Positions 14,220 to 55,558 of a DNA stretch of 64,000 nucleotides are shown piece after piece (within the stretch, counting starts at the first letter, position 1; each line of letters opens with the position of its first letter). The stretch comes from Apostichopus japonicus (taxonomy: Eukaryota; Echinodermata; Holothuroidea; Aspidochirotida; Stichopodidae): NCBI RefSeq assembly GCF_037975245.1, contig NC_092568.1, forward strand, positions 34,628,501-34,692,500. Direction: 5' to 3'. The position numbers and the translations under genes are program-made. The notes under the pieces were generated by a model that worked only from the letters and a program-made list of their open reading frames with translations, was not told the DNA's origin and made no database searches.

Positions 14220-14654
14220 AAAATGTAAATTATATATTTTTTTTTTTGGCTTTTTTTCTGCTTCATAGCTTACGAGATCTGACCTTCGGTTTTTCTTCTT
14301 CTGCCCAAATATATGTTAACTGCATACATCAAATTCGTAACATGACACGAGTGTTTCGAAGGGAAAAAAACATAACATATAGTGACGTCAGCTTCGTTAG
14401 AGGCATGGAATTCAAAATATACTCCCTTCAAGGATCTCATGAATTATGATTATACCTTGAAGGAACGCGCTCGAACAAAATGAACTGAATCATCCACGAA
14501 GAAAACAAGGGAGGGAAAAATAGCATGAATATCGCTTAGCAATATGTTTGCATGTTTCTTGGCCGTGTAGTTGTCTTAATGGGAAGGTGGGCGATAGGAT
14601 GGGTGGGTAGTTGGGAGTAGATGGATGGGTGGAGGTGTTAAGGTTAGGCGTTGT

Positions 14655-14835
14655 GAGGGCGTTGTGGTCAAGTGGTTAAGGCAGTGGACTTGTGATCTAA
14701 GGATTACAGGTTCGAGCCCTGGCCAGATCATTGCGTTGTGTCCTTGGGCAAGGCGCTATATCTCCATTGCCTCTCTTCACCCAGGTCTATAAATGGAGAC
14801 TTGCGCGGTAACTTGTAAATATATTTGCGTCCGCC
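14655..14835 (+). mobile_element. tRNA-derived SINE
   Basis: A tRNA-like head has box A TGGTCAAGTGGTTAAGG (about 14,665) and box B GGTTCGAGCCC (14,709-14,719). It is followed by the tail block 'tgtgtccttgggcaaggc' and 'ccaggtctataaatgg', which is common in deuterostome SINEs. It replaces the position where unit B has promoter sequence, so its insertion or an accompanying deletion removed the TATA-bearing region from copy A. Confidence 0.85.
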
Positions 14836-17444
14836 GATTATATAGAAATGAAATGTTTTTGCACCAAGCTCTTTCCTGTTATTTCATGCCTGCTGATACT
14901 AACAGGTATGAATGTCTGAATGTTTAGATAAACATCTTTTCAGTACAAATGAAACTCGTTCATGTGATATTCTTTTACTTATGTCGTCAATTTCAATAGA
15001 ATATGTCATTCTGCTGTATCCATGGTCTCAAAACGACATACTCGTTAGGGATAAAATGGTGGATAACTTGTGAAAGTTGAGGACCAACCCGCTAGGCATG
15101 AACAGACGATACGAAGAGGTATTCTAACTTGTCTTTATTTTTGTGTTTTTTGGTCAACTTTGGTCCTTAGCTCAATAATGGAGGATAACCAAAGAACGTA
15201 CGGCAGTACGGCCAGTACCAACGAAGAGGGAAGTCTCGCTTATAGTCAGGGGCGTATCCAGGATTTTCTTACCCTGGGGCGGGAATTACTATCTAAGCGG
15301 AGCGCTACCATTGGTTGGCGCGGAGCGTACAAGAAAATTTCTGGTTTTGATATCCCCCAGATCACCGGAAATGGCACTCGGACTCGAAAATGACCAACCA
15401 GATGTACAATTTTGCCTGAGAACCGAGTATTTCCTTTTAGTTTTCCTTTTCCACCCATAACCTTTATGAAGATTGTCACAAGTCACACATCATGTTCGAC
15501 CTCATCGCATCTCCTGTGGGTCATTGCTTATGTAGGTGATTCTACGTCGCGGCCCACAATACCCGTCAGTCCCAATTTTTAAGGTTTTAAGCCCATTATT
15601 GTTCAGAATTTGAAAATTCCCTTTTCTCGTGAAATAAATTCACTTCAACACATAGCCATAATGTTGCACAAAATTTCATATATGGACAACCAATATAGAG
15701 AAAACTCCTTTAACCCCTAGCAGACCTGTCAATATTGCATGAATAGAGGTAAGTATGTTTAAGAATGCTGGTCAGGGGATTTGCGAAAATTCAGACACAG
15801 TTAATTTATAGCTGCATGGACGCAGATCAGTCTTGTACAATGGTGGGGCCCCTTCTATCTAAGCGGAGCGCGACCATTGGTTCGCGTGTAGCGTACAAAC
15901 ATTTTTTGGCAAATATTCCTCGCAGATCGCCGGAAATAACCCAATGATGCTCCCAAACCTTTTTAAGTTTTAGACCTCATGGCTTAGAAATTTAGTTTTG
16001 GAAAATACATGGGCGTCTGCAGAAAAAAATCAGGGGACAAATAATCCAAGTAGACTTTTGTATATACGATGGGTCTGGGATCCTCTCCCAGAAAACAATT
16101 ATAGATCGCCGCAAATGCGAGTTCCGTCCTATATTTAACAACTGTGGATAAATATAATGAAATGAGAATTGGACGTGAAGCTATCTCAAATTGGCAACAC
16201 ACAGTGTGAGTTGTTAACGATTTTTTTGTTCGCACTCAGTCCGTTTTGCTGACCACAATTTACCAGTCTCGTGCATAGAGTATGTTTCACATGATTGAAT
16301 GTGTAAATACTTCACGTCACGCCTAACAGTGTCAATAGTAATAATTATCGTCTTTTAGAGCATGTCATTTGCACAATGCTGGATCAAACTGCGCCAAAGT
16401 TCAATACACTGGAATTTTAAAGGCAACGTTTGGTCAAGACAACTTGGTGGTGGAACGGTATATCATGTCCCCGCCACTGAAAAAGTTTGTGGGGACGCGT
16501 CCCGCTGTCCCCGCCAGGATCTGCGCCCATGTATTGGTGCACAAATATTAAAACCTATCATAACGGCTATTATAAAACTTCGTTGAAGGAAATTAAAAAA
16601 TACCAGATATTTCCGAAACCGACCACTACACACGTAGACAGTTTGGAGGCTGTTTCTCCTGGAACGCCATTTTCATGCTCACTGATATGATTTGATATCT
16701 GCTGCTTGCTTTACAAATTCGAATAATTGAAATGAGACTGAAATAAATACGGTAAGTTTTATTTGTTTGTTGGCAATGCCCCACATTCTTTTCATTTCAT
16801 TTCTTGGGATTTTTCGGGCCTGATCTTGGGAAATTGCAAAATCGGGAGTGGTCACAATCCGTGTAGGTCAGTGCACGACATCTAGACGTCACTAAACCAG
16901 GGAGTTGTTATGGAACAACTCCCTTCTAAAACACAACCCGATCACTTGCTATCGATGAAGTGGTGTGTTGCCGGATTTTGTCAAAGTCTTGGTACTACGG
17001 GCGAAGGTCATTAATTAAGCTTCGTAACTCATCGGGAAGCGATTAGAGGGGTTGGCTTAGGGTTGTGGGGCGCGCGTTTTCATGCAAATGGGAACAATCT
17101 CAAGAAGTGATAGGTGCGTCCGCCCCCCCCCCCCCCACGGCAATGATACGCCCTTGGATCCACTGCATGATATTCACAGGAAATGTGCTCAATTCTCAAA
17201 TCGCATCTGGATTCATTGTATGAGTTACGTACTAGGTTTGGGGTAACAATTAACATTCAAGTCGGGGTGTATAACATTTTATCTCTGGATGGCAGTGTTG
17301 CATAGACATATGTCTAGTGCAGTTCGTATATAGATCCTGATCCAATACCGAAATGCGTCATGGTCCCCGACGAGTCGGTCGAGTTCAAGACCAGCCACAG
17401 TTGGTTTTAAAGCACAATTGTACAACTGCTTAAGGCGTCCACAC

Positions 17445-17665
<221 letters not shown>

Positions 17666-17798
17666 TTCATTTGCCTTTGTCGTTTACCTCCATTGCATTA
17701 ACATAAAGTCTGTTCAAAGTATCTCTTTTGAGATCCGGCTTTAGGAATCACAAATGATTTCGAGTTGATTAGCATCATGTTTGATCTCTAGAGTAAGG

Positions 17799-18152
17799 CA
17801 AAATATGTCACCAAAAACAGAACCAAAAACCGTGCAACAAAAACATGGAATCTTCTAATGAACGATTTAAAGAGTAAAAAGTCAGTCACATCCTTTAAGA
17901 AGTGGTTTTGTAAGGAAATAATAGCTAGTTACTGACTAAAACTAAATTATACCTGTATGTAATTACTATATATATATATTGAACATTTAATTTGTATTTA
18001 TATCTATGTATGTATTCATACACATGTATATATTTTGTTTTTTCTTTTCTTTTCTTTCTTCAGGGAGTCTTCCACATTGTTAAGCTTTTAAGCTTTATGG
18101 AAGACTTCCTCCTCTTTGTACTTTTGTGGCAAACAAATAAATAAATAAAAAC
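17799..18152 (+). mobile_element. 3' end of a non-LTR retrotransposon (CR1/L2/Jockey-like)
   Basis: The open frame ending at TGA 17,933-17,935 has the typical LINE ORF2 C-terminus NRATKTWNLLMNDLKSKK followed by SVTSFKKWF and a terminal ASY. The 3' UTR contains an inverted repeat (GGAGTCTTCCA at 18,064 with TGGAAGACTTCC at 18,098) and ends in an (aaat)n tail at about 18,135-18,150. A 3' hairpin plus a short-repeat tail is characteristic of CR1/L2-type elements. It is 5'-truncated. Confidence 0.85.
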
Positions 18153-18247
18153 AGAACTAGTATTGTTCGATACAGGTGACAAACGCCTACAGTGGAATTA
18201 CGATCTTCCTTACCGGTTTCGAACCTCTGGACATACAATCAGCGTAC

Positions 18248-18360
18248 ATAGCCTAGTGGTTAGGGTGTCCGCGTACAGAGCGGAAGGCCCGTGGTTCGAA
18301 TCCCGGTGGAGTCTGAAAGTTTTTTTACTGTTCTGGATTTTCCAACTCATTACGATTTTC
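18248..18360 (+). mobile_element. tRNA-derived SINE
   Basis: Box A TAGTGGTTAGGG (18,254-18,265) and box B GGTTCGAATCC (18,293-18,303) are spaced as in a tRNA head. The body 'actgttctggattttccaac' is shared with the 17,556 copy. A (TA)n run follows at 18,365-18,392. Confidence 0.88.
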
Positions 18361-18398
<38 letters not shown>

Positions 18399-19229
18399 TA
18401 GTAAGAGGAAAAACGGAATCGTCACAAATGGAGTTGTTGGTTGAAGGGGTAGGCTGAGGCGCACGCCCCTTCCGAAATCATCGATCCGTCACTGGCTACC
18501 CTGTGTATATAATAGGGATCAGCGCTGTAATTATGTCACTGTTCCTCTTTCTCTTCCCGGTGTCTTGGTGTTTTTCTTCTGCTCCCTCCTTTTCTTCTTT
18601 TCTCCTTTTCTCTTTTTTATCTCTTTTTTCTTTTTCTTTACTTTTCTCTTCCTTCCTCCTCTTCCCCCCTCTTTTTCCCCTTTTTTCTTCTCCCTTTTCT
18701 CTCCTCTTGTTCTTACCCGGTGGGGGGGGGGGGGGGGGGTGCGCGCCGCCAACGCCTCCCTGGATACGCGCCTGATAGTAAAGGTAAGTTTAAAGCAGCA
18801 TTTTGCGTTTGTCCAGAATTTTTCCGTGTCTATCGAGTTTTCATCATAATACGATCACAAAAGACAAAACTAAGACTTTCTCATACTTTTTCCCCCACAT
18901 CGAACGTTAATTAGCAAGTAATTAAGGATATTATATGATTCTGAGAATTGTGTCTCCCAGACACAATCGACATTAGTATTTATCACATGCAGCTCTACAA
19001 ACCGCCTATTCAAATTCAACCAATCAGTGAAGAGATGTTTATGTATGACTTGGAGCTTAAAATAGACTCAGTCATTGGCATGGTAATCCCTCAGCGTCTT
19101 TACCGTGAGTAAAGTGTACACGCACGTAAGCCTACTGTACGTAGTACTTAGCAAAGTATTTAGTGTCGTATAATTGCTACATGCACACAATACTATAACC
19201 TGGTGACGAAGTGACAAAAGAATAAAACA

Positions 19230-20492
19230 ATGGAGAAGCGCTCAAATGGGAAATATAAATTTTTGAAGAACCTAACTTCACCTGAAAAGAGAAAATGGCG
19301 GAAAGCCCAGAAGAAAAAGTGTCACGACACCGTGTCCCTTTCGGGAATCAATGGGAAAGATGGAGCGAAGTGAAGAGGAATTTACATCTGAAGAGTGATT
19401 CAGAAGTCACTCGACTTCTACTCGACAGGTAAGCAAAGGATAGAATTGTTCGTTACAATTTTTGTTTACATGATTTAACGTTACTTCTCATTATCGGTGA
19501 GAGAAACTGAGACCGAACCTCTGCCTCCACTATTATTACTACAGTATCTAGTTTAGCCTAGGCCAGTATAGGGGCCTATACTAAGTCTATAGTACTACTA
19601 GTAGTATAGTGTACTTAGCCTATTATTTACTAGCACAACCAAGGCCAGTTAGGCTAAACGCTCTTACTTTTCTTACTCTTTCTTCACAGTCATAGTCTAA
19701 TCAAATTGCAACAAGTTTTTGTTCTTGATACAGTGCTAACTAACGTTCACGCCCGACGCATAGATACTTTACACTAGACTTTACAAGGCATGGGCTATGA
19801 TGGCAGTGATTGCATATGCAGTAGCCGAAATCACGAGGCCTACGTTCTGGCGGTTCCCGTTAGTTTCATGCCCTAAATAATGTTTGTTTCATCCCCTAAA
19901 AACGTTTCTTACCTCTGTACCTCCTCAATCATGGGGAGGAAATTATCGTTTTTCCATGGAGGAAGCTGATGAAAGCATATTGGCTAGGCTATGTGGAAAG
20001 AATAAATTTAGTAGGCCTAGGGCCTAAGTGGAATAACTGTAGGGATTTCTTTTCATTTCTACCTTTTCTACAAATATCTCTTCCCATATAGCCTAGCCAA
20101 TTTGCCTCCCTTGGAAAATGTTTCTTTGATTGAAATCGTTATTTTCTCTCCTAAATCAAAAATTACAGTTACTTCAGTACCTAACTCTTTCTACGTAGCC
20201 TAGCCAAATGTCTTCTTGCTTGAATTCCTCCCCTGAGAAACAGTACTTTCCTCCCTGAGTGATAGTTTATTTTTGTGATTCTACTTTCAGGTTTACAAGG
20301 AATTTCTCAAAGTCTGCAGGCAGATGGACCTGTGTTCCTGTTATGGAAAAGAATAGTTACAAGTACATTCCGCAACTGATGAAGGACATATTTAGACGGA
20401 GGCTTGATGATGACAATTCTCAACTAGGACGTGTTGTCGTGTTGTTCTTGCTGAGGATGACCCAAGGCACATCTCTGGTACAATTCGCCTGA
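19230..20492 (+). pseudogene. Two-exon ORF of the TTAA transposon, frameshifted
   Basis: Exon 1 runs from ATG 19,230 (MEKRSNGKYKFLKNL, Lys-rich) to a consensus donor at 19,428|gtaagc. A one-base slip in the A-rich run near 19,315 is needed to reach the second half, which contains GNQWERWSEVKRNLHLKSDS and ends RLLLDR. Exon 2 starts at 20,291 after TACTTTCAG and is in phase (codon AG|G). It continues KNSYKYIPQLMKDIFRRRL to a stop at 20,490-20,492. The W-x2-W...LKS-x4-V-x2-LLLD pattern resembles short DNA-binding or accessory modules in other transposon-linked invertebrate ORFs, but I do not recognise a named family. No catalytic triad is visible. Confidence 0.5.
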
Positions 20493-20508
20493 GCCAACCT
20501 CCATCAGT

Positions 20509-20770
20509 TTTACAGCTTCTTGCAAGCCATCATAGCAGAATATGGGACCAAGTTCTACTGTTGTAATGAGTCAAATCTATAAGTCTTCCTTGCATCAGCA
20601 AGTGATATCATTTTTTTTTGGGTGGGGGGGGGGGTGGGATGGAGTTGTTGCACAGCTTGTTGCAAGCCATCAGAGCATCATGGGGCCTAGTTCTACTTTG
20701 TAATAAGTCAAATCTATTAATCTTCCTCGCTTCAGCAAGTAATATTATTTGGGGGTGGGGGGAGGTTGGA
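20509..20770 (+). repeat. Tandem duplication, period about 142 bp
   Basis: Two copies of a block starting 'acagctt-ttgcaagccatca' (20,510 and 20,652) and running through 'agtcaaatctat-a-tcttcc' to a G-rich end. The first copy overlaps the region just after the stop of the transposon ORF. Confidence 0.85.
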
Positions 20771-25872: not shown

Positions 25873-27083
25873 CATCAGCTGAACTACGCAGAAGGAAACA
25901 GCTATCAGCAATTCTCAGATAGCAGTTTATGAGATTTTTGAGTTTATAATTTCATAAAACTACCCTCTATAGACCACTTTGTGCAATACCGAAATCGGTG
26001 TGGTAAAATTTAGGGAGCCCACTAGTGCCCCTGCCCCACCCTGGCAAAACCTATCCACTTCAATGGGTACATCATCCCATACACGGGCACTTTTAAACAC
26101 TATCGATGCGTCACAGTTGGAATACATAAAGGGACTATTTAACGGTCATGTAACTAAATATACTAATTTACCAAACGCAATTCACATTTGCATATTAATC
26201 TCATTGTTAAATATTTCGTCCCATTTCGTCTACAGTTACTGAATAAAATAAGCGAAACATTGTACGTCGAGTAAATCGTGAGAAAACTGAATCAATCCAT
26301 CGTGGCGGTGAGTTACACACACGGAGGCAAATATAATTAACTTTTCCAATAAATTCAGAGGGGGGGGGGCAAAGGTCGACCTACCCCCCATTCCACTGCC
26401 CCACCATTCCACCTTCCGCCTCAGTTACGTACAGGGAAGGCAATTAATGTAGAGATTGAGAACCTGTGTGGTGTTACAAATTTCGTGTGATGTTTCACGT
26501 TTTTTACTTAGTACTTTGTTTTCACGCAAAGGACAAGAGAGATATTTTCCAACCGAAAAACATAATTCGATTGTTGTTCATTAAAATCTCTGAAAATTGA
26601 ATGAGATGCCTTTTATTTGTTTATCATTTTATTTAAACAATGACATTTGTTTTTTATTCTTTTCTTTTTATATACAGAGATTCTTACTGAGCAAACCGAC
26701 GAAGCTTTTCCTCTAGTCAACGATACAAGTAGAAATCGTTCATGGAGGAGACTTGGCTGTTGCTGTTGTTGTTTTTGAAATAATTTTGCAGAAATTCGAT
26801 TGGACTGATGCAGCCTTATATTTAGTACCCTTTATAACTCTTATTGTATTATCTCTTATTGTATTATGTGCAAATTGGGAAACAAGGAACAAGTTTTCTT
26901 TTGAGACAAAATGAGGTGAAATCATGCTCGTTGCTAATGTAGGAATCTTTCGAATTAGAGTTTATTTCTTGCTAATATCTTTACAATTTTTTTTCTATTC
27001 GAAATTACAGCTATGTTCTGGCCTATAACTTAGTTCAATATTTCCATAAGGATAGAAAGCAAACAGAAGCTCATGTTGATTGC

Positions 27084-30556: not shown

Positions 30557-31326
30557 CAGGGGCGTAGCGAGCGGGGGGTGTGGGGGGTGTCACACCCCCC
30601 CCAATAATTTGGTCGCTGTCGGCAAATTTTGGGTCTGTCGGCAAAAGGAGAAAAGGTGAAGAGAGCGGAAGGGGAAGAAAGAAGGAAAGCTGAATAGAGA
30701 AAAGGAGAACGGGAGCTTCTTCCGTGCCAAATTTGACTTAAAATATGCACCAGATTGCATCTAAGACGTTTCAAAACTAAAAATTTTCCAAAGGGGAGGG
30801 GTAGACCCCCTATACCCTTAGACCCCTCCCCCATTTCAGTCACCACTTCCAGATCCGTCGGCAAATCAAATTTGACTTAAGATATGCACCAGATTGCATC
30901 TAAGGACGTTTCAAAACTAAAAATTTTCCAAAGGGGAAGGGGACACCCCCTCCCCTTAGACCCCTCCCCCATTTCAGTCACCACTTCCAGATCCGTCGGC
31001 AAATCAAATTTGACTTAAAATATACACCAGATTGCATTTAAGGACGTTTCAAAACTAAAAATTTTCCAAAGGGGAGGGGGACACCCCCTCCCCTTAGACC
31101 CCTCCCCCATTTCAGTCACCACTTCCAGATCCGTCGGCAAATCAAATTTGACTTAAAATATACACCAGATTGCATTTAAGGACGTTTCAAAACTAAAAAT
31201 TTTCCAAAGGGGAGGGGACACCCCCTCCCCTTAGACCCCTCCCCCATTTCAGTCACCACTTCCAGATCCGTCGGCAAATCAAATTCTCCACACCCCCCCA
31301 ACAAAAAAAACTTCGCTACGCCCCTG
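30557..31326. mobile_element. hAT-like non-autonomous element with internal 139-bp array
   Basis: Ends CAGGGGCGTAGCGAGC and, inverted, CGCTACGCCCCTG. A perfect 8-bp target duplication GGCCTATA lies at 30,549-30,556 and 31,327-31,334, the hallmark of the hAT superfamily. The inside holds four tandem copies of a ~139-bp unit ('ccagattgcat' at about 30,750, 30,889, 31,028 and 31,166). No transposase. Confidence 0.92.
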
Positions 31327-32595: not shown

Positions 32596-35500
32596 ATGGA
32601 GAATAACCAAAGAACGTACGGTACTACGGCCAGTACTGACGAAGAGGGAAGTCTCGCTTATAGTAAAGGTAAGTTTAATACATGTGAGTATTGCAGTACT
32701 CGAGTGGGTTCAACCAAAGCTGAACAGGAATAGAATATGAATCATTGTGCCTATGTGATGTATATATACTCACCGCTAAGAACATAGGCTATATATACTT
32801 GAGCATAACAATTTGATGCCGATATATTGTTTGGTTGTTTCATTAATGTCTCAACAACACAAATTGTATACCCAAAATGTTGAAACATGTTTTGTATTTG
32901 TTTGTATTGAGAGAAAAGACTGTTGAAAAGAAATTTCAGCTCATAAAATATGAAATCAAGGGTTATCAAGTATTTTTTTTTATTTCTAAGAGGGACAGAG
33001 AGAAACATGGGCCAGCGAGACTTAAATTACTCTATACTTACATAGAACAATAAGATGCGCAAGAACGTATAAGCCACTCAAGAGTAAAGCTTTAAGGACC
33101 CGCATATAGGCTACCCGGTTAGTGCAAGAATGTGAGCCGATCTTTTTCATGGGCCGCCCAATGTGAACCCTTGCATGCTATACATCTATAAAACAATTTT
33201 ATGACAGAGTAATAAAAGCATAGAGCCTAATTTGCATATTAAACTTGAAACTTAACAGTATTGTCAATTGTGGTCACTGATTTATACGCACAGATCAACC
33301 TATGCACCTTATATACTTGTGTTGATTTCCCCCATTGATCCTTTTTATACTTAACAAACATCGTCATGGCATTATATGATGTTATTTTATAAAAATGACC
33401 TCATCATTTTCAAATCAAAACGGAAAATGAGAGCCTATAGGTTTAAAGAGCTCGTATATTACAACACGGTATATGTGCTATATGCCATTGTACGGTATAT
33501 ACAAGGTATGTGCTATATGCCATTGTTTATATGGCATTGTACGGTATGTACAAGGTATGTGCTATATGGCATTGTACGGTATGTACAAGGTATGTGATAA
33601 GTGTCATTGTACGGTATGTACAAGTTATGTGCTATATGGCATTGTACGGTATGTACAAGGTACGTGCTTAAATCGTAGTCCCACTGTACATGTGTACAAT
33701 CACAGTTATTACGCTGTACTGTATGGCTGAGTAGATAAATCTCAGAAAGTGACGGTGTCTTTAACCATATTGACAGTGAATTTACGTTGTAATCACTTCC
33801 GTTTTGATTTCGTTTTGCCGCTTAAAAACAGTGAAACGATGTTAATGGCATATGAAGGAGAAATCATACTGTACATAACTGAATGTGTGAAAGATCTGAC
33901 AGGATACTAACCCGTGTGTTTGATTTATGTAACTTCTACGTTACCACCTCATCATTCGGTAAAAAAAACTTCCCAGACTTCAGAGCTCAGTTTCTTAACC
34001 AATTTAAATTCTAAAGCGTGAGATAAAAAACCCATAAGGTCGGTGTGATAACAATTTAACAGACCGTTCTTTTTCTCGGTTAATTTTTTTTTCGTAGAAT
34101 TACGAGGCTTTCAAATTTTTCAGTAGTTTGCAATATATATATATATACAGACATGACGCCACTCTTTGATATACGTGTAATTTCATGGCTGAGAGTTCTA
34201 ATCTGTTCATGGAACACCATGAGTGTGCAGTCATCTTCATAGACGGGACAGAGCCAGGAATTTATAAAGGAGGAGGAATAACCGACTGGGACTCCCCACC
34301 CCCAAGAATTTTTATGTTGTGAGGTTGAAAACGGTAGGGGTGTAAATCATCGCATACTCCTGGAATCGCGCGGGTTCAGCATTATGGTCATCACCCTTGT
34401 CATCATCAATACCATCACTGTTACCCTCATAGTTTGACATGAATAACAAACCCATGAAGAGGAAATTCAGAAAGAAAATGACGAAAGCAGCCTGTCGAAA
34501 GGGTGAAAGAGAAGGGTTAAGGGAAGAGGAGCGGTGAAACTTCTAAGTCTTCTTTTGATCTGATAAGATAAAAGAATGACCTCTTTCAACCACCTTTAAA
34601 CACGACAATATCATGAAAATGCCGACACAAATGAAATAATAATAATAATAATAATACAAATCCTAATAATAATAATAATCAAAATCGCAATAATCATAAT
34701 TATCATAATAATCATAAAGTCCATCAGGTGAACTACGCAGAAGGAAACAGCTATGAGCAATTCTCAGATAGCAGTTTATGAGATTTTTGAGTTTATAATT
34801 TCATAAAACTACCCTCTATACACCACTTTGTGCAATACCCGAAATCGGTGTGGTAAAATTTAGGGAGCCCACTAGTATGAGACGCACTTTCCTCTACCGT
34901 GCCCCTGCCCTACCCTTGGAAAACCTATCCACTTCAATGGGTACATTATCCCATACACAGGCACTTTTAAACACTATCGATGCGTCACAGTTAGAATACA
35001 TATAGGGACTATTTAACGGACATGTTACCAAACGCAATTCATATTTACATATTGAACTAATTATTACATATTTCGTCCCATTTCGTCTACAGTTACTGAA
35101 GAAAATATGCGAAACGTTGTACGTCGAGTAAATCGTGAGAAAACTGAATCAATCAATCGTGGCGGTAAGTTACGCACACGGAGGCAACTATAGTTAATTT
35201 TTCCAATAAAACCAGAGGGGGGGGCAAAAGGTCGGCATGCCCCCCATTCCACTGCCCCACCATTCCACCCTCCGCCCCAGTTACGTACATGGAAGAAAAT
35301 TTATGAAGAGAACCTGTGTGGTGTTACAAATTTCGTGTGGTATTTCACATTTTTTAGTTAATAAATTTTGTATTTTCACGCAAAGGACAAGAGAGATATT
35401 TTCCAACCAAAAGACAAAAATCGATTTGTTGTTCAGTAAAATCTCTGAAAATTGAATGAGATGCCTTTTTTTGTTTATCATTTAATTTAAACATTGACGT

Positions 35501-35630
35501 GTGTTTTTTATTTCTTTTCGTTTAATATACAGAGATTCTTACTGAGCAAACCAACGAAGCTTTTCCTCTAGTCAAAGATACAAGTAGAAATCGTTCATGG
35601 AGTAGATTTGGCTGTTGCTGTTGTTTTTGA
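32596..35630 (+). CDS. Copy B: intact 80-aa cysteine-tailed SNARE-like protein
   Basis: Three coding exons: 32,596-32,668, 35,093-35,164 and 35,533-35,630, all with GT/AG borders and matching phases (codon split 1/2 at both junctions). The protein starts MENNQRTYGTTASTDEEG, has a charged helical region VTEENMRNVVRRVNREKTES (residues 25-44) continuing to EILTEQTNEAF (49-59), and ends RSWSRFGCCCCF. No signal peptide or membrane segment. The four terminal-proximal Cys would suit palmitoylation and thus membrane attachment on the cytosolic face. Aligned by exon to paralog E, the helix takes the place of an R-SNARE motif, but the central Arg is Val37. A possible 51-nt 5'-UTR intron (32,538-32,588) precedes the start. 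It is the only open copy of A-D and the only one with the TATA block. Role in membrane fusion is inference; it could also be an inhibitory or unrelated coiled-coil protein. Confidence 0.7.
33470..33670 (+). repeat. 35-bp intronic minisatellite, copy B (about 5-6 units)
   Basis: Unit 'attgtacggtatgtacaagg' plus 'tatgtgctatatggc' repeats about 5.5 times in intron 1. The open frames at 33,376-33,730 are read from the array. Confidence 0.92.
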
Positions 35631-37185: not shown

Positions 37186-38025
37186 TCATCTGTCTTCTTC
37201 TTGCCTAGAGGCAAATAAGGACTCAACAGAGCGTCTCCATTCGTCTCGGTCGGCAGCTGCAGGCCTCATTCCAGAATCGCCGCACCAGCTCCCTCTCTCT
37301 TTGTCTACTGTCCTGCGCCATGTTGTTTTTGGTCGCCCTCTCTTTCTCCTGCCCTCTGGTGCCAAAGTCATGCTGATGTTGCTGTCGTTGTTAGGGTTTG
37401 GGCGCAAATATATGCCCAATGAATATCCATTCTGCTTTTCTTAATTTCGATGCTTAGTGGTCCCATTTTTGCTCTCTTTAGCAGTTCATTTGTGCTGACC
37501 CGTTCTTGCCATCTTATCCCTAGCACTCTCCTGAGGCATTTGTTATGAAATATATTCATTTTCCAGGTCTTGCATCCATATAGTAGGACCGGTAGTACCA
37601 GTGTTTTGTATAGCCTTATTTTTGTTCTTCTACAGATGCTTTTGGAGACCTAAATCTTTTGTAGACGTATTAGTGCACCCCTGGCTTTCCCAATTCTGTT
37701 GGCAATGTCTTCCATTCCGCCACCATCTTTTGTCATTGTCGCACCCAAGTATACAATTCTGTCCACCTTTTGTAACTCTTCCTGACCAATATAAATACGT
37801 TCCTGGTTTCTAGTGTTTATACGCATCACACTGGTCTTCTGTTTATTAATGTCAAGATCCACTCTGCTCGCCTCATCAGCTAGCAATTTTTTTTTTATTT
37901 GCATATGTTGCTTGGTTGATGACATGAGAGCAATGTCATCTGCAAAATCTGCAAAATCAAATACTGATAATACTGACTGAGTTTTATTCAGATTATAAGC
38001 TTATCAGCAAACACAAACTTTGACG
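37186..38025 (-). mobile_element. RTE-like LINE, C-terminal half of RT ORF
   Basis: Minus strand. In order: FADDIALMSSTKQ (RT catalytic box), INKQKTSVMRINTRNQERI, VDRIVYLGATMTKDGGGMED, KIRLYKTLV..VLLYGCKTW, NKCLRRVLGIRWQERVSTNE, and the basic terminus PEGRRKRGRPKTTWRR ending at RQEEDR. This is the thumb and C-terminus of a family abundant in marine invertebrates. Frames are broken between the pieces, and the 5' part is missing. A shorter copy lies in unit A at 27,084. Confidence 0.9.
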
Positions 38026-38800: not shown

Positions 38801-40334
38801 TTGAACGATGTTGAAATCACTATTTTGTATGGAAAATCAAGCAATTCGCCCACCCAGTATATTCAAATATAGCCAATGGATGGCCCAAAAAAATTAAAGC
38901 TACCCATCCCGTAAATCATAGTTATTCACTGAGATTACTGAATTGCATATCTGACCCGTAAAAGCTCATTTAATAGAACTTAAATTAAATTAATGAGTCA
39001 CAAAACTTAGCTCACTGTGATGTGATGGCGACATTCACAATCATACAATCACGTCCGTTTCATTTTAGCGAATACATGATAAAAACTAAATAAAAATAAC
39101 TAAAAGAACGATTTTACAGATATGAGGCTAAGCCTAATATTGTAGTACATTGTATAAAACAAATCGGAAAATTTTTCTCCTTGGTTTTTGTGTTTTTATT
39201 GTGTTTTTTGTTTCTGCTTCCTTTTTTTGTACTGAATTATCCACGAAAACTAAAGAAGGAAAAAACAAATGTTTTTGCACCAAGCTCTAATTTCTTTCCG
39301 GACTTTCTTATTATTTCATGCCTGAGGATACTAACAGGTATGAATGTCTGAATGTTTAGATAACATCTTTCCTGTACAGATGAAGCTCGTTTATGTGATA
39401 TTCTTTTAATTAAGTCGTCAATTTCATGAAAAGACGATACGACGAGCTATTCTTACTGGTTTTTGTTTTGTTTTGGCTAACGTATTATCCTTAGCTCAAT
39501 AATGGAGAATAAGCAAAAAACGTACGGCAGTACGGCCAGTAACTGACGAAGAGGGAAGTCTCGCTTATAGTAAAGGTAAGTTCAATGCCTGTGAGTATTG
39601 CAGTACTCGAGTGGTTCGCTTAAACCAAAGCTGAACAGTAAAAGAATATGTATCCTTGTACCTACATGTGATGTATATATACTCACCGCTAAGAACATAG
39701 GCTATATATTCGTAAGCGTAACAATCGATGCGGATTTGTTGATAAGTTGTTTCACTAATAATCTCAACAACACAATTGTATACCCAAAATATTGAAACAT
39801 GTCTAGTATTTGTTTTTATCGAGAGAAAACACTGTTGAAAAGAAATTTCAGCTCATAAAATAAAAAATGAAGGGTTATGAAGTAATATTTTTCTACGAGG
39901 GACAGAGAGAAACATGGGCCAGAGAGACTTAAATTACTTTATACTTACATAGAACAATGCACAGGATAGGCAAGAACGTAAGCCACTCAAGAGTAAAGGA
40001 CCAGCATATAGGCTACCCCGGTTAGTGCAAGAATGTGAGCCGATCTTCTTCACGGGCCGCCCAATGAGGATCCCTGCTATAGATCTATAAAACACATTTA
40101 TAACAGAGTTATAAAAGCATAGAGCCTAATTTGCATATTAAACTTGAAGCCTAACAGTTTTGTTAATTGTGGTCACGTAATCATTGTACTAGCTGATTGT
40201 ATCATTGCGTGTTGGCCAGTAAAATTACATTCAACCCCATTAAAACTCAGGTGGCGGTGAAGACAGACAATGGAATTACACAAAATGGTGAAAACGATTG
40301 TTTGTGACCCTGAAGAGTTTAAAGAGCTCATATA

Positions 40335-42732: not shown

Positions 42733-44084
42733 CATATAGGGTCTATTTAACGGTCATATAACTTAATATATTAATTTACCAAACGCAACTCACATTTGCA
42801 TATACAACTCACTGTAACAAATTTCGTCCCATTTCGTCTACAGTTACTGAAGAAAAAGTGCGAAACATTATTCGTGGAGTAAATCGTGAGGAAACTGAAT
42901 CAATCAATCGTGGTGGTAAGTTACGCACACGGAGACAAATTAAGTTTTCCAATGAAACCGGAGGGGGGGGCAAAGGCCGACCTAGCCCCCCATCCGACTG
43001 ACTGCCCCACCATTCCACCCTCCGCCTCAGTTACGGAAAGGGAAGTCAATTTATGTGGAGATTGAAAAACTGTGTGTTGTTCCCAATTTTGTGTGATATT
43101 TCACGTTTTTGACTTAATATTTGTGTTTTTACACAAACGACAAAAGAGAGATTTTCCAATTTTTCCAACCCCCCCAAAAAAATCGATTTGTTGTTCATTA
43201 AAATCTCTAAAAATTGCATGAATGAGATTCCTTTTAATTGTATATAATTTTATTGAAACATTGAAGTTTGTTTTTTATTTCTTTTCTTTTCTTTTCTACA
43301 GAGCAACTTACTGAGCAAACCGACGAAGCTTTTCTTCTAGTCAAGGATAAAACTAGAAATAGTTCACTTAACTGTTGCTGTTGTTTTTGAAATAATGGAG
43401 TTGAATGGAAATAATGGAGTTGAATGTAATTTAACGATACTTGAGATTTTACTTCAGTATCCACCCTGTACAGGTCGGGCTTATGTTAGAAAAGAGCTGG
43501 CAACCTTGGTGACGTTAAATAACCTCGTGTCAAAATTGTCTTTAACACCTAATGGTTTCTTGCATAATTGTCAAGACATTTAATTGAGATTTACATCCTG
43601 CAACAAACTCCTGGTCTATCTTGAAACTGGAACAAGTTAAGGTGTGTGTGTCTATATGGTTCTTGTCTGGTCGTTACTTGCTTTTACGTAAACGTTTGTA
43701 CTAAGTGACAATATTCTATGATCTGGCCTATAACTTAGTTCAGTATTTCAATAATGATATAGAAAACAAACAGAAGCTCATGTTGATTGTAGATGACATT
43801 CACAGGCTTACATCAAGTCCTCTCTTTTCGATGAGTGCTCAGGGAAGTCAACCACCCCTGCTCCCAGGACCGACAATCAACGTCCCCATCTTACGGACAA
43901 GAGAGTACCATTTGAATACTTTCGAAAATACAGGTGAATATACACATATGGTGAACGGATTTGTCATGCAATACTGCAGTAAATTCAACTCTGAAAATGT
44001 TAGTCCTTAAATCAAGTACAACCAGTAAGTTAGACCATTTGTTTCCTATACCTTACCCTTTGTTGCGGTAAAAGACTCTAGGGA

Positions 44085-46592: not shown

Positions 46593-46631
<39 letters not shown>

Positions 46632-47207: not shown

Positions 47208-47752
47208 TTAACTGAAGAAAATGTGCGAAACGTTGTTCGTCGAGTAAATCGTGAGGAAACTGAATCAATCAATCGTGGCGGTAAGTTACACACACGGAGG
47301 CAACTATTATTAATTTTTCCAATAAAACCAGAGGGGGGGGGGCAAAGGTCGACATATCCCCCACCCACTGCCCCACCATTCCACCCTCCGCCTCAGTTAC
47401 GTACAGGGAAGGGAATTTATGTAGAGATTGAGAACCTGTGTAGTGTTACAAATTTTGTGTGATATTTCACGTTTTTGACTTAATATTTGTGTTTTCACGC
47501 AAAGGACAAGAGAGATATTTTCCAACCAAAAAACAAAAATCGATTTCTTGTTCATTAAAATCTCTGAAAATTGAATGAGATGCCTTTTTTTGTTTATCAT
47601 TTTATTTAAACATTGACATTTGTTATTTATTTCTTTTCTTTTCATATACAGAGATTCTTACTGAGCAAACCAACGAAGCTTTTCCTCTAGTCAACGATTC
47701 AAGTAGAAATCGTTCATGGAGGAGACTTGTCTGTTGCTGCTGTTGTTTTTGA
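47208..47752 (+). pseudogene. Copy D of the SNARE-like gene: exons 2 and 3 only
   Basis: Exon 2 is 47,208-47,280 with the same acceptor and donor as in B, but one extra A near its start (TTAACTGAA for TTACTGAA) makes it 73 nt and shifts the family phase. Its sequence is otherwise open (TEENVRNVVRRVNREETES). Exon 3 is 47,652-47,752 (EILTEQTNEAFPLVNDSSRN, tail RLVCCCCCF). No exon 1 was found upstream within unit D. It is a 5'-truncated duplicate, though exon 2-3 could still be spliced from an upstream unit. Confidence 0.8.
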
Positions 47753-48829: not shown

Positions 48830-48871
48830 TAATCATTTCTTAAATGATTTAAATCATTTAAGAAATGATTA
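48830..48871. repeat. Perfect 42-bp palindrome
   Basis: Two 21-base arms, inverted copies of each other without mismatch or spacer. Begins taatcatttcttaaatg at 48,830. It lies about 90 bases beyond the end of unit D homology. Confidence 0.95.
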
Positions 48872-49226: not shown

Positions 49227-49234
49227 GATGTGGG

Positions 49235-49581
49235 TAGTGGCGTATGAAGGTAATTTTGAGTGGGGGCTGAAGACTGATGGCCGGCCTGGGGGAGGGGTCT
49301 AAGGGGACGGGGTGTCCCCCTCCCCTTTGGAATTTTTTTTTGCATTTTCAGGTGGCCTCAGATGCAATTTGGTGCAATATAGCACCCTTAAACACCCACT
49401 CCATTTTGTAAATAATTTTGCATTTTCACCTGGCCTTAGATGCAATTTGGTGCTCCAAATGAGATTTTTTTTCTCATTTGGAAATGAAAAAGGGTTTTTC
49501 TGACCTGCGAAGCGGGGGGGGGGGGAATCATACTTCCGCCCCACCATATTTTTCACACAGCCCCCCGGTTCCTACGCCCTT
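49235..49581. mobile_element. hAT-like MITE, 347 bp
   Basis: Ends TAGTGGCGTATGAAGG and, inverted, GGTTCCTACGCCCTT. Perfect 8-bp target duplication GATGTGGG (49,227-49,234 and 49,582-49,589). Internal sequence is shared with 42,384-42,732, including 'gatggccggcctgggggagg' and 'tggtgctccaaatgag'. Confidence 0.93.
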
Positions 49582-49589
49582 GATGTGGG

Positions 49590-51300
49590 GAATTAAAGTT
49601 AGCGAACACGTCCATTCGTCGGTTATCTCTGTAAACGCTATGGGCCTTAGATGAGACTGATGTGTGTTAGTTCAAGAAGAAAAAAAATTGAGTTCTCGTT
49701 ATAAACAACGTTTGATGTTTTCAAGATATCCGATTTTGGAAATATGTTAAAAGGCTGGAATGCTCCTTTAGAGAGAGGCTTCTGAGATGATGACGTCGGT
49801 TCCTCAACCCAAACATTCTCTTTTAACTTCATATAACCAAAGAGAGCACCATTGGATGTAGTCCTGTTCAAGACCCTGGCATTCTGCTGTTACTGTTTTA
49901 ATCAGTATGAGTGCACCCTCACATCCTCTGTCGAAACCCAGTTTGAAGGCTAATTCCCATGACAAGCTAATTTGTTGAAGGGCGCCCCCAGTTGATGTGC
50001 AATCCGACGATACTTATGTATAGAACGATCGCCTTGAATATATATACGGGGTTCGAATACCGGCTATGAGGTTTTTTTTCACTGTTCTGGTAAAAATTAC
50101 GGAAGTTCAGAAATCAGAAAATTTCCTCTTTCACGCCCGGTGAATTCATCCTTCCGGGAGTCATCAGGCGAAGGTATGAATCGAACCCCGGACCTTCGTG
50201 CCGTCACAGACCTAAAGTATGAATCGAACCCCGGATCTCCGTTTCCCAGACCTAAGTCGGTACCATTACTAATGACTTTGTATAACTGTCAATGAGAGCG
50301 TTTTACGCACGTGTTATGATTGTACAGAGTGCACCGCTTGTGCATTTGTTTCCGACAATGTCACACGGAATTCCCAGGCTTGTAAGAGGGGAAATAAGTT
50401 CATTGCTTTTAAGTTACGAGCGTTTCGAGTATTTTTTGTTAGAACAAATACTTCTCCCAGTCCAAAGGTACAAATGTTAGAAAAGCGTTTACCTGTTTTC
50501 TGGTTATATACCCCTGTTTGTTGATTTCCTGTTGCTGACTATGGCCATTCACAGACACGGCAGTTCCATACTAACATTTACAAGAATATGATTCGTATGA
50601 GCCTATATGATATATAGGTGAACGAGTGTGAGAATTTGCCTTATATATAGGTGATCATCAAATGTAGAGTAAGTGTGGTGGGACAGGTAAGTGAACACCT
50701 TTCATATTAATATTGTTAATATGTACATGTTCAATGTTAGGCCGAAAATAATGACGTAGCGAGTTTGTATATTTGCCTTACTTCTTATAGCATTTAAACA
50801 TATGGACTACACCTGTTGCTTCTTATAATAGTAGTTCCAAAGCCAACAGTCAATCACAGAAAAGTTTGTACTTATTATATCATCTTGTTATTGATAAAGA
50901 AACCAGATGGGTCGATGTATATTATCAATCATAAGTTTTCGTTCCTACCCCCCCCCCCCCCCGGACACATTAAAAATAACTAAAGGGTATAGTTGACAAG
51001 TAATACGCACTGCGTTGCTCTATAATGGATCTCAACATTTGAAACAGTGTGAACTTCTGGTTGATGCATTTTGCTTAATTTATTGACCTAAGTTATTCAT
51101 AAGAATTATGACCCTTATATATATAAGCCTATAACCTCACACACTGCCACGAGCATTGGTGTGCATGTTTTCCTTCTTCCTTTGTAGTGTATATTTATGT
51201 ACTAGTCATTTTATGACCAAAACTTAATTGATTGGTCTTGATGACGAAAAACAGTTTGGAAATATCGATAAAAGGGAAACTACAGAATTAGGTATTGTAC
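49590..51300. other. Non-coding stretch with SINE relics
   Basis: At 50,050-50,105 'ggggttcgaataccggctat' plus 'cactgttctgg' is a decayed copy of the SINE seen at 18,248. At 50,168-50,250 two inverted box-B-like words 'tatgaatcgaaccccgga' lie 45 bases apart. The rest shows no gene; a C run lies at 50,949-50,962. Confidence 0.5.
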
Positions 51301-51385
51301 AGAATTGTGCAACTTGGCCTAGAAACAATCACATGACTTAACAAAGCAGCTGTAAAAACTGCACGTCACTTGCTGATATACAGAA
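51301..51385 (+). promoter_or_regulatory. Block upstream of paralog E shared with promoter of copy B
   Basis: 'gtgcaacttggcctagaaac', 'cacatgac' and 'ctgcacgtcacttgctgata' align with 32,180-32,260 of copy B in order and spacing. The TATA itself is not kept here. It lies 2.3 kb before the start codon of E, so a 5'-UTR intron would be needed if this is its promoter. Confidence 0.4.
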
Positions 51386-51797
51386 ATGGAATACTGATTT
51401 ACTGTGCTGTAATGTCGTTACGTATACTTTCTTATCGTTTACAGTTGTGTAAGATAACATGTTGGCCTACTTTTAAGAAAATCAGTTGAAGATCCAGACA
51501 ACTAATACACACTGCTTGTAAATCCTTGTTTTTTTCTTCTTCTTTTTTTTAAACCGGTGACAAATATCGCAATTGTTCTCGGTGAATATTCTTTAAAGAT
51601 TTCTTTAGAGTTATTATCGATCCAACACGATGTTGCATGATTCCATTCTGTTGCAGACTGCCTTTCTGCTTACAATAATTGGATGAGACAATTTACTACA
51701 ATTGTTACTGACTGTTTGATTGTTCTTTAATTTTCTATTCCGGTGTGACAATGTAAAGTCTCACCCTCAGTGTGTATCGGGGGGGGGGGGGGGGTGG

Positions 51798-52350
51798 CAC
51801 GAAGCTTTTTCCCAAACAGGTTTGCAATTAGTGTAAACAGCTCATGATTGTTGGAAAAGTAATGGGATCACCGTTAAAAGCTTCAGTTGTTACCAAAATG
51901 TTGAGTGTACGGTATAATGTACGGTAATGTTATGTACGGTGTTTATTCAATTGTTTTATATATATTTACTTCAATGCAGATACATATCATTCAGCAGAAA
52001 TGTTGTGTTAATTAAGCCTTGCTTATTCGCGTACCATTGTCCACATTTTGGACAGGAAAATCCAGGCTAACTAGAGGCCTAATCACAATTCAATGACGTA
52101 CTGTACCGATTCAAAACTATTGCTGCTGTCATGTTTTGTTGAGGATATTCATTCAAGACAAAACTTAATGTGTTCATCTCAACACCATGTTTCAGTGACT
52201 CCAATGAATGCAATGAATATTTTGACATTTTATGACATATGCACCTTATCATTTTTCTGATTCAGTCCAACTTCCAAGCGATGGTTTTTATTGATGCTGA
52301 CGTCGCGAGCAATGATTGGCCGCAAACTTCGTTATTGCAAATTCTGTACA
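51798..52350. mobile_element. Inverted-repeat element, copy 2
   Basis: The left side 'tttttcccaaacaggtttgc' followed by 'catgattgttggaaaagtaa' matches the inverted right arm of copy 1 (3,495-3,555). The right side 'gacgtcgcgagcaatgattg' matches the inverted left arm (2,868-2,895). Interiors differ. Confidence 0.6.
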
Positions 52351-53665
52351 AGAACGCTTAACGGACAGGGGGAAATAATCTTCTTCACAACAACCCAACA
52401 GTGTGATTTTGATGTGATGACTATGCATAGCGTGTGCAGTGCACATGCACTTAATTCCTACAAAACACCAAATAGCGTACGGCAACGACACAGTTGCAGC
52501 ATTTCTTGTGTACTAATAAGCCAATGACTTTGATCAACATCTAGATTTAGAAATATGGATAAGTATTGAACTTAACGTAGTCGAAACAAGGTACAAACTA
52601 TCAATGGCTCAAAGCAAGGGTTCTCTATGGTAATTTACGAGCAGTTTCATTGAGAGTTAAAATGGTAACTGATACATTTTAATGGAGGGGGGGATTCTAA
52701 ATCCCCCCCCCCCCCCGATGGAGGATTTAGGTAAAGGTGTGAACCTTTATGGAAGGATTTGAGAAGGAAGGGTCCTGAAATATTGCAAACAGCAATGTAA
52801 GAATTGGAACACAACTGCGGGTTTACCACCCTCTCTTGTGTTTTCATTCTCTCAGTGTTACTCAGGTGGACCTCATTCATAGTGCAAGTCTGCCTCGGAA
52901 TGCACGTCTGAGTTTTAAAATTTGCAGAGGGTGGGGAAGGGGAATGCAGCCCTACGCGGTACTCGGCTTCAATTACCCTATGGCAGCACCTCATCTTTAT
53001 AGATACTTCATTCGCATCTAGAACTCCCTTAAATATTCAGGCGACTGTCATCATGTTTCAGTCGGTGGAAATTTTGGGTTTATCATTATTTATTAGCACA
53101 ACTGCTTCGCAATACACTTTTGGGCGAGGGCGGGGAGGGAGTGGGGAGGGCAGGCGGCCGGGGGTGGCAGATCAACCAATCTCGTTCATAGGAGCCGGTT
53201 TAAATGAACCCAGGATAGTTATTTCGCCCCTGGCCCTTGAAATGTTCAGCTCTCAACCTCAATAAGTCGGGTGTAATTTTTAGTTTTCCCCGTCCCCCAC
53301 CATTGAATCTCATGCGCGCCACTGGGAAGGGGGAGGGGGATGGGTAGGTTTGGTAATATTTAGTACATTTTTATAAATCCCCCTTATATATCACCTTATT
53401 GTAGTCTCCATAAATGCATGGTACATTCATGAGCGAAAATGAATAGATTTTTGTTTGTATCAACTATATACCCCGTTTCTCGAGGCTGTAGCGCCTCCCG
53501 ATCCTTCCTCCCAACCCCTCCCCCAACCCCTCTCATATTGTAGACAGCACTGGATGTTGTTATTTCTAGAATGAGTCATTTACCCTGCGACGAGATAACA
53601 AATTAACTTCTTTTTGTTTGTTAAGAAGGAAGAAGTTAAGCTATATACGTTTGAGAAAAACAGAC
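52351..53665. other. Upstream flank of paralog E, no gene seen
   Basis: Contains C/G-rich homopolymer zones (52,684-52,715, 53,120-53,165, 53,320-53,345). Short frames here have no recognisable domain. A pyrimidine-rich acceptor-like site (tttttgtttgttaag, about 53,615-53,628) could start the first coding exon of E. Confidence 0.45.
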
Positions 53666-55558
53666 ATGGCCAGTGGTCACGGAAGCTATGGCAGTATACC
53701 CTCTTCGGACAATACTGACAAGGAAAGAACTCTCGCTAAGTACGGAGGTAAGCTCAAAGTAATGATTGTGATGAGTGGTTCAATTTAGCCAAAGTTAAAG
53801 GAAAAGTGGAGATAAAAATTAATTTATGTCGATATTAATGAAAGAAGAACATAAACTAAGCATCCTGGTGAAATTGAAATGTTATTCCTACATTGTCTGT
53901 TAGAGATTATAAAAGTAGAAATTGTCAGAGTTTGTACCATAAGTACATGCTGATAGGATTTTATTATTTATTAATTTCCCTTTATTGTTTTGATCTTGGA
54001 TTGAATGCTGGTTTCAAACTTGCGTTCGTGTATGTCAATGTATTAATACCACAATAACTATTGTGTTCAAAAATGTTAATGCATCCCTTTTCGAAGAACA
54101 ATTTTGATAAAGATTTTAAAGACACTTAAAAAACACATTTTTCAATGTGCATTTGTGATTGCGCACACTAAGTGCTTCAAGTTTGCTTTCGGTACAAAAC
54201 ATGTCAATTTCAAATGTTGATTTCATGAAAACGATGCATAAGAATTTGGTTCAAGTTTAGACACGAATCCTAGAATACTCTTTCAAAAGTCAAACATAAT
54301 ATTTCTCTGGTTACTATTGCTTCAATCTTTTATTAGTAAAGTGTTTCAATATATTGTTAGTTCGTTTCATTAATGTTACAAATACTATCTCAATCAACAA
54401 ATCAATTAGTTTTCAAACCAAGCATCACCTCATCGACTATATAAAATCTCTTCAACCATTTATAACAAATGTATATAGGTCTTGCCTAATGTGCCTCCAG
54501 GTGTAACCTTATATATATATATATCTATATCTATATATTGAGTTGCTTGAAACTGGTATAAGTCCACGGAAATTGACTTCTACCGATTCAATTCGACAAA
54601 TCATCGATTTAAACTGGTATGATGTCGATTTAAATTTACATATCATCGATTTATTTTACGTATCATCAGTAACTTGGAAAACGCTTATTCTAACAAAGTG
54701 GCCTTTGACGTCATATTTCACGGTGGTACTCTCCACCACAAGCATCAGTTCAGTGCCTCAATGGGGTGTGAGGTGGGCAGCAATTTGGTATAACATTCTT
54801 GCACAAATTGTCGATAAAATGCATTTTCTCATTCCCAGCAAATTACATTCAATTTAGAGATGAAATTAAAAAAAAAAAAACATAACCATATTTTTCACTA
54901 ATTCCTCAAGTTATATACACATATAACACTTGTTGGCGTTGATGAATAAAGTAATATTCTACAGCTAGTGTGTTAGTCAATCGCAATTCACAAATTGGAC
55001 TTACACTGAATTTGGTATCTTTTGACCGTAATTTAGACACTGTAAGGAAAGTGCGACAGCTTATAAACGATCGAACACGTGAAGTAAATGACGATATCGA
55101 GCGTGCTGGTAAGTGTTACTTATGTTGTCCTAGTAGTAAGTTTTATTCAACTACTCCTTTTTTTCTCATTATTATTTATTTGGTCGCCTAGCAACCAGTC
55201 GCCACAAATTTTTCTCTGAGAAAATGTACGTATTTCAAATCTCGCATCTCTTAGCTTTTCCCTGATATATAGTTTTATGTTGTAGTAATCTGGTTTATTC
55301 AACCCTTGTAACTATGGACCGCATGGTTCCATGCACTTTTTGTATAAAATAATGTGGGGCTCAAGAGAACTGAAAGGTGAACATTTTCTTCTCTTCATAT
55401 ATATAGATAATTTAGAAGCGCAAACTGATGCATGCTTTAAAAAGGGTGTCAGTGTGCAAGTTGAAGAAGATGTTCCTATCGTTTCCCGTATAGCTAATGA
55501 AGGCTCATGGAAGAGGTATTGCTGTTGTTTGTGTTGGAAACGTAGAGTTACAGGTTAA
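53666..55558 (+). CDS. Paralog E: 101-aa R-SNARE-like protein with cysteine tail
   Basis: Coding exons 53,666-53,747, 55,037-55,108 and 55,407-55,558, all GT/AG, with the same phases and the same 72-nt middle exon as copies A-D. The N-terminus (MASGHGSYGSIPSSDNTDKE) is Ser/Asp-rich. The motif runs LAKYGDTVRKVRQLINDR, then TREVNDDIERADNLEAQTDA, then CF (residues 23-62). It aligns without gaps to the central part of VAMP/synaptobrevin: Arg40 at the ionic zero layer, Leu23, Tyr26, Val30, Val33, Ile37 before it and Val44, Ala51, Leu54 after it, with a 'RAD-L' match to VAMP2. It lacks a membrane helix; instead SWKRYCCCLCWKRR near the C-terminus suggests palmitoylation and basic membrane contact. 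It is open, so probably functional. The SNARE assignment rests on visual alignment and could be convergent coiled coil. Confidence 0.7.

Follow-up and report, generated by a model that had tools for sequence, protein, structure and literature searches.

A tandem family of small cysteine-tailed coding units in Apostichopus japonicus, one of which may derive from an R-SNARE gene

Results

Organization of the locus

We analyzed a 64,000-nucleotide stretch of the Apostichopus japonicus genome (G000:C8:34628501-34692500; hereafter "the window", meaning this whole stretch) that carries a tandem family of small coding units whose predicted proteins end in a cluster of cysteines; one of them, c5, has a helix and an intron that may have come from an R-SNARE gene. 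Comparing the window with itself revealed related units in tandem, ~77–92% alike over up to kilobases, introns included. The five related copies all lie on the + strand and are named c1 to c5 in order along it. Their cysteine-tail last exons lie at 26.7, 35.6, 43.4, 47.7 and 55.5 kb, their second exons begin at 26236, 35093, 42844, 47208 and 55037, and first exons with a YGS or YGT motif start at 15178, 32596, 39502 and 53666 (c1, c2, c3 and c5, respectively). The parts of each copy are as follows.

15178 to 15246, + strand: c1 exon 1 remnant, reads MEDNQRTYGSTASTNEEGSLAYS..; splice donor lost, repeat from 15247
26236 to 26307, + strand: c1 exon 2, 72 nt, in-frame TAA
26678 to 26778, + strand: c1 exon 3, tail SWRRLGCCCCCF, then stop
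32596 to 32668, + strand: c2 exon 1, 73 nt, phase 1 at its end
35093 to 35164, + strand: c2 exon 2, 72 nt
35533 to 35630, + strand: c2 exon 3, tail SWSRFGCCCCF, then stop
39502 to 39575, + strand: c3 exon 1, 74 nt, frameshift to a stop
42844 to 42915, + strand: c3 exon 2, 72 nt
43302 to 43390, + strand: c3 exon 3, tail NSSLNCCCCF, then stop
47208 to 47280, + strand: c4 exon 2, 73 nt, frameshift
47652 to 47752, + strand: c4 exon 3, tail SWRRLVCCCCCF, then stop
53666 to 53747, + strand: c5 exon 1, 82 nt, MASGHGSYGSIPSSDNTDKERTLAKYG, phase 1 at its end
55037 to 55108, + strand: c5 exon 2, 72 nt, encodes a helix whose layers are R-SNARE-like; a GAT codon is split as G^AT by the intron that follows, after ..ERA
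55407 to 55558, + strand: c5 exon 3, NLEAQTDACF..SWKRYCCCLCWKRRVTG, then stop

A sequence-only reading of the same DNA had described five copies built on one three-exon plan. Five related copies are indeed present, but only two of the five, c2 and c5, are intact, with three exons and an open frame: c2 splices 73 + 72 + 98 nt into 80 codons plus a stop, and c5 splices 82 + 72 + 152 nt into 101 codons plus a stop, matching the protein sizes given in that reading (80 and 101 aa). In both copies the two introns are in phase 1 and all four splice sites are kept; the two proteins are 34% identical. Other details of that description also held up: exon 2 is 72 nt long in four copies and 73 nt in one (c4), the Tyr-Gly-Ser/Thr motif is found in exon 1 of c1, c2, c3 and c5, and all five last exons encode a terminal cysteine cluster (CCCCCF in c1 and c4, CCCCF in c2 and c3, CCCLC in c5). 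By contrast, its start of the family at 14460 has to be moved: coding begins at 15178, and 14485 marks the onset of non-coding similarity to the next unit.

The other three copies are broken, each in its own way. Exon 2 of c1 contains an in-frame TAA (TE, stop, NKRN..), and a repeat starting CAGGGGCGTATCC takes over its exon 1 at 15247; no consensus donor is present in the 111 bases read from exon 1 into this repeat, the donor being gone because the exon runs into it. The start of the repeat, CAGGGGCGTATCCAGGATTTT, which we take to resemble a hAT-type terminal repeat, falls exactly where exon 1 of c1 loses its donor. Exon 1 of c3 has one base too many (74 nt as compared to 73) and reads MENKQKTYGSTASN followed by a stop; in c4, the extra base of exon 2 shifts the frame, and a search upstream found nothing that resembles exon 1 of the other copies. 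Among c1–c4, c2 alone is open, c1, c3 and c4 being pseudogenes. Because three of the five copies are broken, the lineage-specific family of fusion regulators proposed in the sequence-only reading shrinks to at most one or two genes.

A shared intron and a helix register in c5

Searching the genome of origin (671.6 Mb, 35 contigs) with the R-SNARE profile PF00957 gave 20 matches, 11 of them above cut-off; the names VAMP4-, VAMP7-, VAMP8-, YKT6-, Sec22-, amisyn- and tomosyn-like used here were assigned by reading the sequences. Three R-SNARE genes have a phase-1 intron after layer +3 of the motif that splits its codon as G^AT: synaptobrevin (DDRA/(G^AT)ALQ, the slash marking the intron), the VAMP4-like gene (QDKS/(G^AT)DL, same place) and a gene on contig C7 (MARA/(G^AT)SL, same place). 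The second intron of c5, IERA/(G^AT)NL, equals these three in position, phase and split codon. As a control, a search with PF05739 gave 7 matches, namely six syntaxin-type (Qa) exons covering the site and one downstream exon, and all six of the former run through the +3 intron site. In both SNAP-25 genes (2/2) the exon stops 4 nt before the site with a phase-0 donor; the following exon was not found.

When the alignment is anchored on the intron, the Arg in the c5 sequence NDRT coincides with the layer-0 Arg, the two RAD stretches are superposed and a Leu occupies layer +4. Layers -3 to +6 are then V V I R V D A L T C in c5, where synaptobrevin has M N V R L L A L A F; after layer +6, Gly and Pro follow in c5. 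Against synaptobrevin alone, the intron offset was the best of 128 (score 31; runner-up 19), and a score of 31 was reached at any offset by 46 of 1000 shuffles and at the intron offset by 0 of 1000. The same offset ranked 4 of 151 against the C7 R-SNARE and 34 of 136 against the VAMP4-like row, a rank that is unreliable as in this comparison the row held one intron-derived residue at the junction.

We also scored c5 with ungapped 38-column R-SNARE profiles made from three motifs of its own genome, from seven typed human motifs, or from all ten. The intron register ranked first of 64 windows with all three profiles. The best score of c5 was matched at any offset by 15/4000 (own genome), 37/4000 (human) and 22/4000 (both) shuffles, and its anchored score by 20/4000, 30/4000 and 19/4000 heptad-preserving shuffles, respectively; a repeat with the own-genome profile gave 3/3000. 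Taken singly over 38 columns, the synaptobrevin and C7 motifs each prefer the intron register. Qa (syntaxin) and Qb (SNAP-25 N-terminal) motifs were rejected: R-SNAREs fit c5 better, and 241/3000 and 439/3000 shuffles, respectively, equaled the scores with these motifs; against their profile hidden Markov model (HMM) versions, 107/2000 and 1878/2000 shuffles scored as high as c5. We conclude that the c5 helix appears to be SNARE-like, with the layer-0 Arg and the intron phase pointing to the R class.

A candidate relative on another contig

The C7 gene (G000:C7, ~26028480-26030675, - strand; L030, L031) has a long basic N-terminal region and is a clear R-SNARE (PF00957, E = 3.7e-13; VAMP4 in the PDB, E = 5e-7). 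Its exons splice to ..PSLAELQQQTEEVAAAMRENGTRILQRGEHIDTLMARADSLNKVAETFQKNTREIPAGRCCIWKSIRNLFSKCNCCTA followed by a stop, and hydropathy revealed no membrane helix. The next exon upstream, with the motif SYGS, holds SYGSCSSDSSNED, whose counterpart in c5 is SYGSIPSSDNTDKE; this N-terminal match was equaled by 45 of 3000 shuffles, and the exons concerned have the phase-1 donors GTAAGT (C7) and GTAAGC (c5 exon 1). C7 is like c5 in that its N-terminal motif combines SYGS with Ser/Asp, and in its phase-1 introns, RA/D intron, cysteine-rich C-terminus and lack of a membrane helix, but unlike it in its full PF00957 match with layer-0 Arg, its longer basic N-terminal region and the wording of its cysteine-rich tail, CCIWKSIRNLFSKCNCCTA. 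This gene would be the natural link from c1–c5 to the R-SNAREs. Its model is incomplete, the start codon not having been found, and a genome search with it returned its own three exons only and no second copy. Further upstream of C7 lie open reading frames (ORFs) with similar STGDGTT/NGDGPIT stretches, which may be repeated first exons.

Tail and membrane anchoring

The sequence-only reading had seen no membrane helix, and hydropathy agrees: the best 19-residue Kyte-Doolittle mean is 0.38 in c5 and -0.23 in c2, as compared to 3.41 in synaptobrevin; both open copies lack a hydrophobic helix. The Trp/basic/Cys end of c5 is probably S-acylated, as its cysteines are clustered next to Trp and basic residues and take the place of the membrane helix; this tail may resemble those of R7BP and RhoU. 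Neither c2 (tail CCCCF, then stop) nor c5 (..KRRVTG, then stop) ends in a CaaX box.

A genome-wide DNA pattern for an S-W-basic-x-C-C tail had 12 exact matches. Most of these are attributable to chance, since the backwards pattern, run as a control, had 8; copies c1–c4 are not expected among them because one residue more precedes their cysteines. Besides c5, an in-frame S/T-W-basic-x-C-C occurs at three loci (L046, L051 and L052), none of which has a LEAQTD-like exon start or, within 1.5 kb upstream, a YGS/YGT start. A 72-nt phase-1 candidate upstream of L046 was unlike exon 2. At L051 (G000:C15:10733204-10733226, - strand), an open frame ends in ..ILVPKVVGTYRSWKRKCC and a stop, similar to the tail of c5; it may be chance, because the 1.5 kb upstream shows no matching exon.

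Family searches and divergence between the copies

A number of results weigh against an R-SNARE origin of c5. The first concern the intron and the register themselves. The +3 intron is missing from five other R-SNARE genes of the genome: exons of the VAMP8-like, YKT6-like, amisyn-like and tomosyn-like genes read through the site and the Sec22-like gene breaks earlier (in the VAMP7-like piece, the stretch read stops short of it). The upstream intron of c5 lies 7 nt from that of synaptobrevin and is in phase 1 as compared to 0. The VAMP4-like motif alone puts the best c5 register 7 residues away. The intron register is also where a single typed SNAP-25 Qc motif matches c5 best (22.0; 25/3000 shuffles), so that the profile by itself leaves the SNARE class unfixed.

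Secondly, family searches recovered no SNARE. In Pfam, whole c2 and c5 matched no SNARE family (for c5, only DUF4192 at 0.08, under cut-off), and joined exons 2 and 3 of c2, c3 and c5 matched only weak unrelated models under cut-off; the positive controls were found by PF00957 (C7 gene, E as above; synaptobrevin, E = 9.7e-29). In the PDB, c5 had no match and c2 one chance match (E = 0.8), and a two-row profile retrieved a single coiled-coil protein (E = 1). The sequence-only reading had looked to profile searches to settle its SNARE assignment, and these place neither c2 nor c5 in a SNARE family. A collection of 5.8 billion proteins had no match for c5 and none for the C7 R-SNARE; it is probably poor in animal proteins, because a true R-SNARE drew a blank as well, and we do not take this blank as absence. 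Scored with a profile HMM of eight typed human R-SNARE motifs, c5 reached 2.6 bits (a score equaled by 19/2000 shuffles) and c2 1.9 bits (101/2000), and the reversed c5 sequence exceeded c5 itself with 3.3 bits; taken alone, these results would defeat the SNARE reading.

Thirdly, c2 does not follow c5. In the register of c5 its layer 0 is Val and its layers fit poorly, with 2323/4000 heptad shuffles as good (own-genome profile); its own best register lies 10 residues off, where layer 0 is the Arg of INRGE (8.3; 47/4000), and the joint c5 and c2 score prefers this +10 register with all three profiles (own-genome: 3.7 vs -8.7). At the N-terminus, c2 did not match C7 significantly (519/3000 shuffles). 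Either c1–c4 lost the motif or the c5 register is a coincidence. The R-SNARE kinship suggested by the sequence-only reading is thus backed for c5, by the shared phase-1 intron, the register with its layer-0 Arg and the likeness to C7, but not for c2, which prefers another register.

The lack of a family match for c2 and c5 in Pfam and the PDB, the score of reversed c5 in the HMM test and the disagreement between the two registers would all suit a different origin, in which c1–c5 form a lineage-specific, fast-evolving family of small acylated coiled-coil proteins unrelated to SNAREs, with some other partner and only the likeness that short amphipathic helices have in general. We consider this somewhat unlikely, since the c5 intron has the position, phase and split codon of three R-SNARE genes at the very register that scores best, and since the C7 R-SNARE has SYGS, a phase-1 intron and the type of tail in common with c5. 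Nor do c5 and c2 fit the G-gamma subunit, a non-SNARE candidate that we rejected: it had no Pfam match, and its profile score was reached by 801/2000 (c5) and 904/2000 (c2) shuffles. Pfam likewise matched neither a CD225 nor a longin domain in c2 (80 aa) or c5 (101 aa).

Finally, the divergence between copies bears on whether any of them is functional. Among the six pairs of c1–c4, 4–14% of sites differ in exon 2, 4–22% in exon 3 and 7–17% in the intron between them; because exon and intron divergence are similar, these exons are without clear constraint. Synonymous (dS) and nonsynonymous (dN) divergence, obtained by a Nei-Gojobori count with our own script, were 0.72 and 0.78 for c2-c5 over 32 codons, and for the other pairs with c5 were 0.63 and 0.75 (c1-c5), 0.73 and 0.61 (c3-c5) and 0.81 and 0.71 (c4-c5). 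Over 42–43 codons, dS and dN were 0.00 and 0.05 (c1-c2), 0.09 and 0.17 (c1-c3), 0.03 and 0.08 (c1-c4), 0.13 and 0.15 (c2-c3), 0.03 and 0.04 (c2-c4), and 0.05 and 0.15 (c3-c4). A dN/dS of ~1 in the pairs counted, with dN near or over dS, is a further point against the R-SNARE reading of c5. Together with the three broken copies of five and the intron-like divergence of the c1–c4 exons, it could mean that the entire locus is decaying and that c5 and c2 are merely its last open copies, functionless. We judge this improbable: c2 and c5 are far apart, and yet both have kept four splice sites, their phases and open frames.

Discussion

Weighing these results, we favor, with a probability of about 0.5, the reading that c5 is a shortened, acylated and non-fusogenic decoy derived from an R-SNARE. 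In this scheme c5 would descend from a brevin/VAMP4-type R-SNARE gene whose three-part plan was kept. It would retain most of the R-SNARE helix, with Arg at layer 0 and hydrophobic residues or Arg at most layers from -5 to +6 (layers -5 and -4 being assigned by reading the sequence only), and would have lost the membrane helix as well as the final turns of the motif, ending instead in a Trp/basic/Cys cluster. Copies c1–c4 would be a later tandem series in which the helix drifted further. Synaptobrevin/VAMP1-2 and VAMP4 of the same genome are like c5 in the phase-1 +3 intron, its G^AT codon and the layer-0 Arg register; c5 differs from them in that it stops short of the last layers, has no membrane helix and is not matched by the profile.

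In the cell, an acylated tail would tether this half R-SNARE helix to the cytosolic face of a membrane, where we infer that it could pair with Q-SNAREs, displacing a VAMP and inhibiting fusion. The helix would enter the Q-SNARE bundle to about layer +6 and then break, at Gly and later at Pro; c5 would act as a non-fusogenic decoy because zippering could neither finish nor pass force to a membrane helix. If this is true, c5 illustrates one way in which an R-SNARE gene can become a small decoy anchored by lipid: the motif is truncated at its end and cysteines take over from the membrane helix. A full-motif relative with a similar tail would then still exist in the same genome. It would likewise show that a SNARE ancestry missed by profile searches can be traced through the position and phase of introns.

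Several known proteins invite comparison. YKT6 is an R-SNARE without a membrane helix whose cysteine tail is lipidated. It shares with c2 and c5 the cysteine tail and the lack of a membrane helix, whereas YKT6 alone has a longin domain, the complete motif and a prenylation box (CCAIM). Syntaxin 11 and syntaxin 19 are SNAREs in which a terminal cysteine cluster replaces the membrane helix, but they belong to the Qa class, carry an Habc domain and have Gln at layer 0. R7BP (RGS7BP), a much larger protein, is likewise SNARE-like; it is comparable to c2 and c5 in lacking a membrane helix and in having a CC tail, which in R7BP is acylated. IFITM3 and other CD225 proteins have a membrane domain, and differ from c2 and c5 in the CD225 domain itself.

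According to one report, IFITM3/CD225 proteins are SNARE mimics that regulate SNARE-mediated fusion, and IFITM3 has an R-SNARE-like motif (PMC11730294). As described there, IFITM3 offers a precedent for a small palmitoylated protein that controls fusion via an incomplete R-SNARE-like motif (PMC11730294), and non-fusogenic SNAREs are termed i-SNAREs in another source (PMC3627133). The statement in the sequence-only reading that its combination of features matches no described family is too strong, given that YKT6, syntaxin 11, R7BP and IFITM3 (PMC11730294) are comparable. A literature search by title or abstract opening, with most subscription journals outside its scope, showed no such cysteine-tailed R-SNARE family among the matches listed.

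More speculatively, and on the whole unlikely in our view, C7 and c5/c2 may together represent a lineage-specific R-SNARE line that lacks the membrane helix and carries acylated cysteine tails, in which C7 is the full-motif parent and the shortened, fast-evolving c5 and c2 of the tandem series are dominant fusion decoys, following a logic like that described for IFITM3 in the report cited above and perhaps shaped by conflict with intracellular microbes.

Surroundings of the family

The family probably lies between two other genes. On one side, an ORF at 3263-3715 (+ strand) matches the beta-PIX coiled coil (PF16523, E = 3.3e-5, just under cut-off) and is probably the end of an ARHGEF7-like gene. 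On the other, exons at 60833-63196 (- strand) read like a PP2A B'' regulatory subunit; they have no Pfam match, and the part at 62867-63196 has a weak PDB match to the PP2A B'' beta subunit (E = 0.044).

The window also contains repetitive elements. Reverse transcriptase pieces at 6680-7120 and 37653-38000 (both - strand; PF00078, the second just under cut-off) probably come from elements of the non-LTR (non-long terminal repeat) kind, and a tandem array with a unit of ~139 bases, 94–97% alike, occupies 30728-31285. At 18242-18314 (+ strand), a tRNA-like sequence scores 38 bits with Rfam RF00005 and is not found by ARAGORN; it is perhaps a tRNA-derived short interspersed nuclear element.

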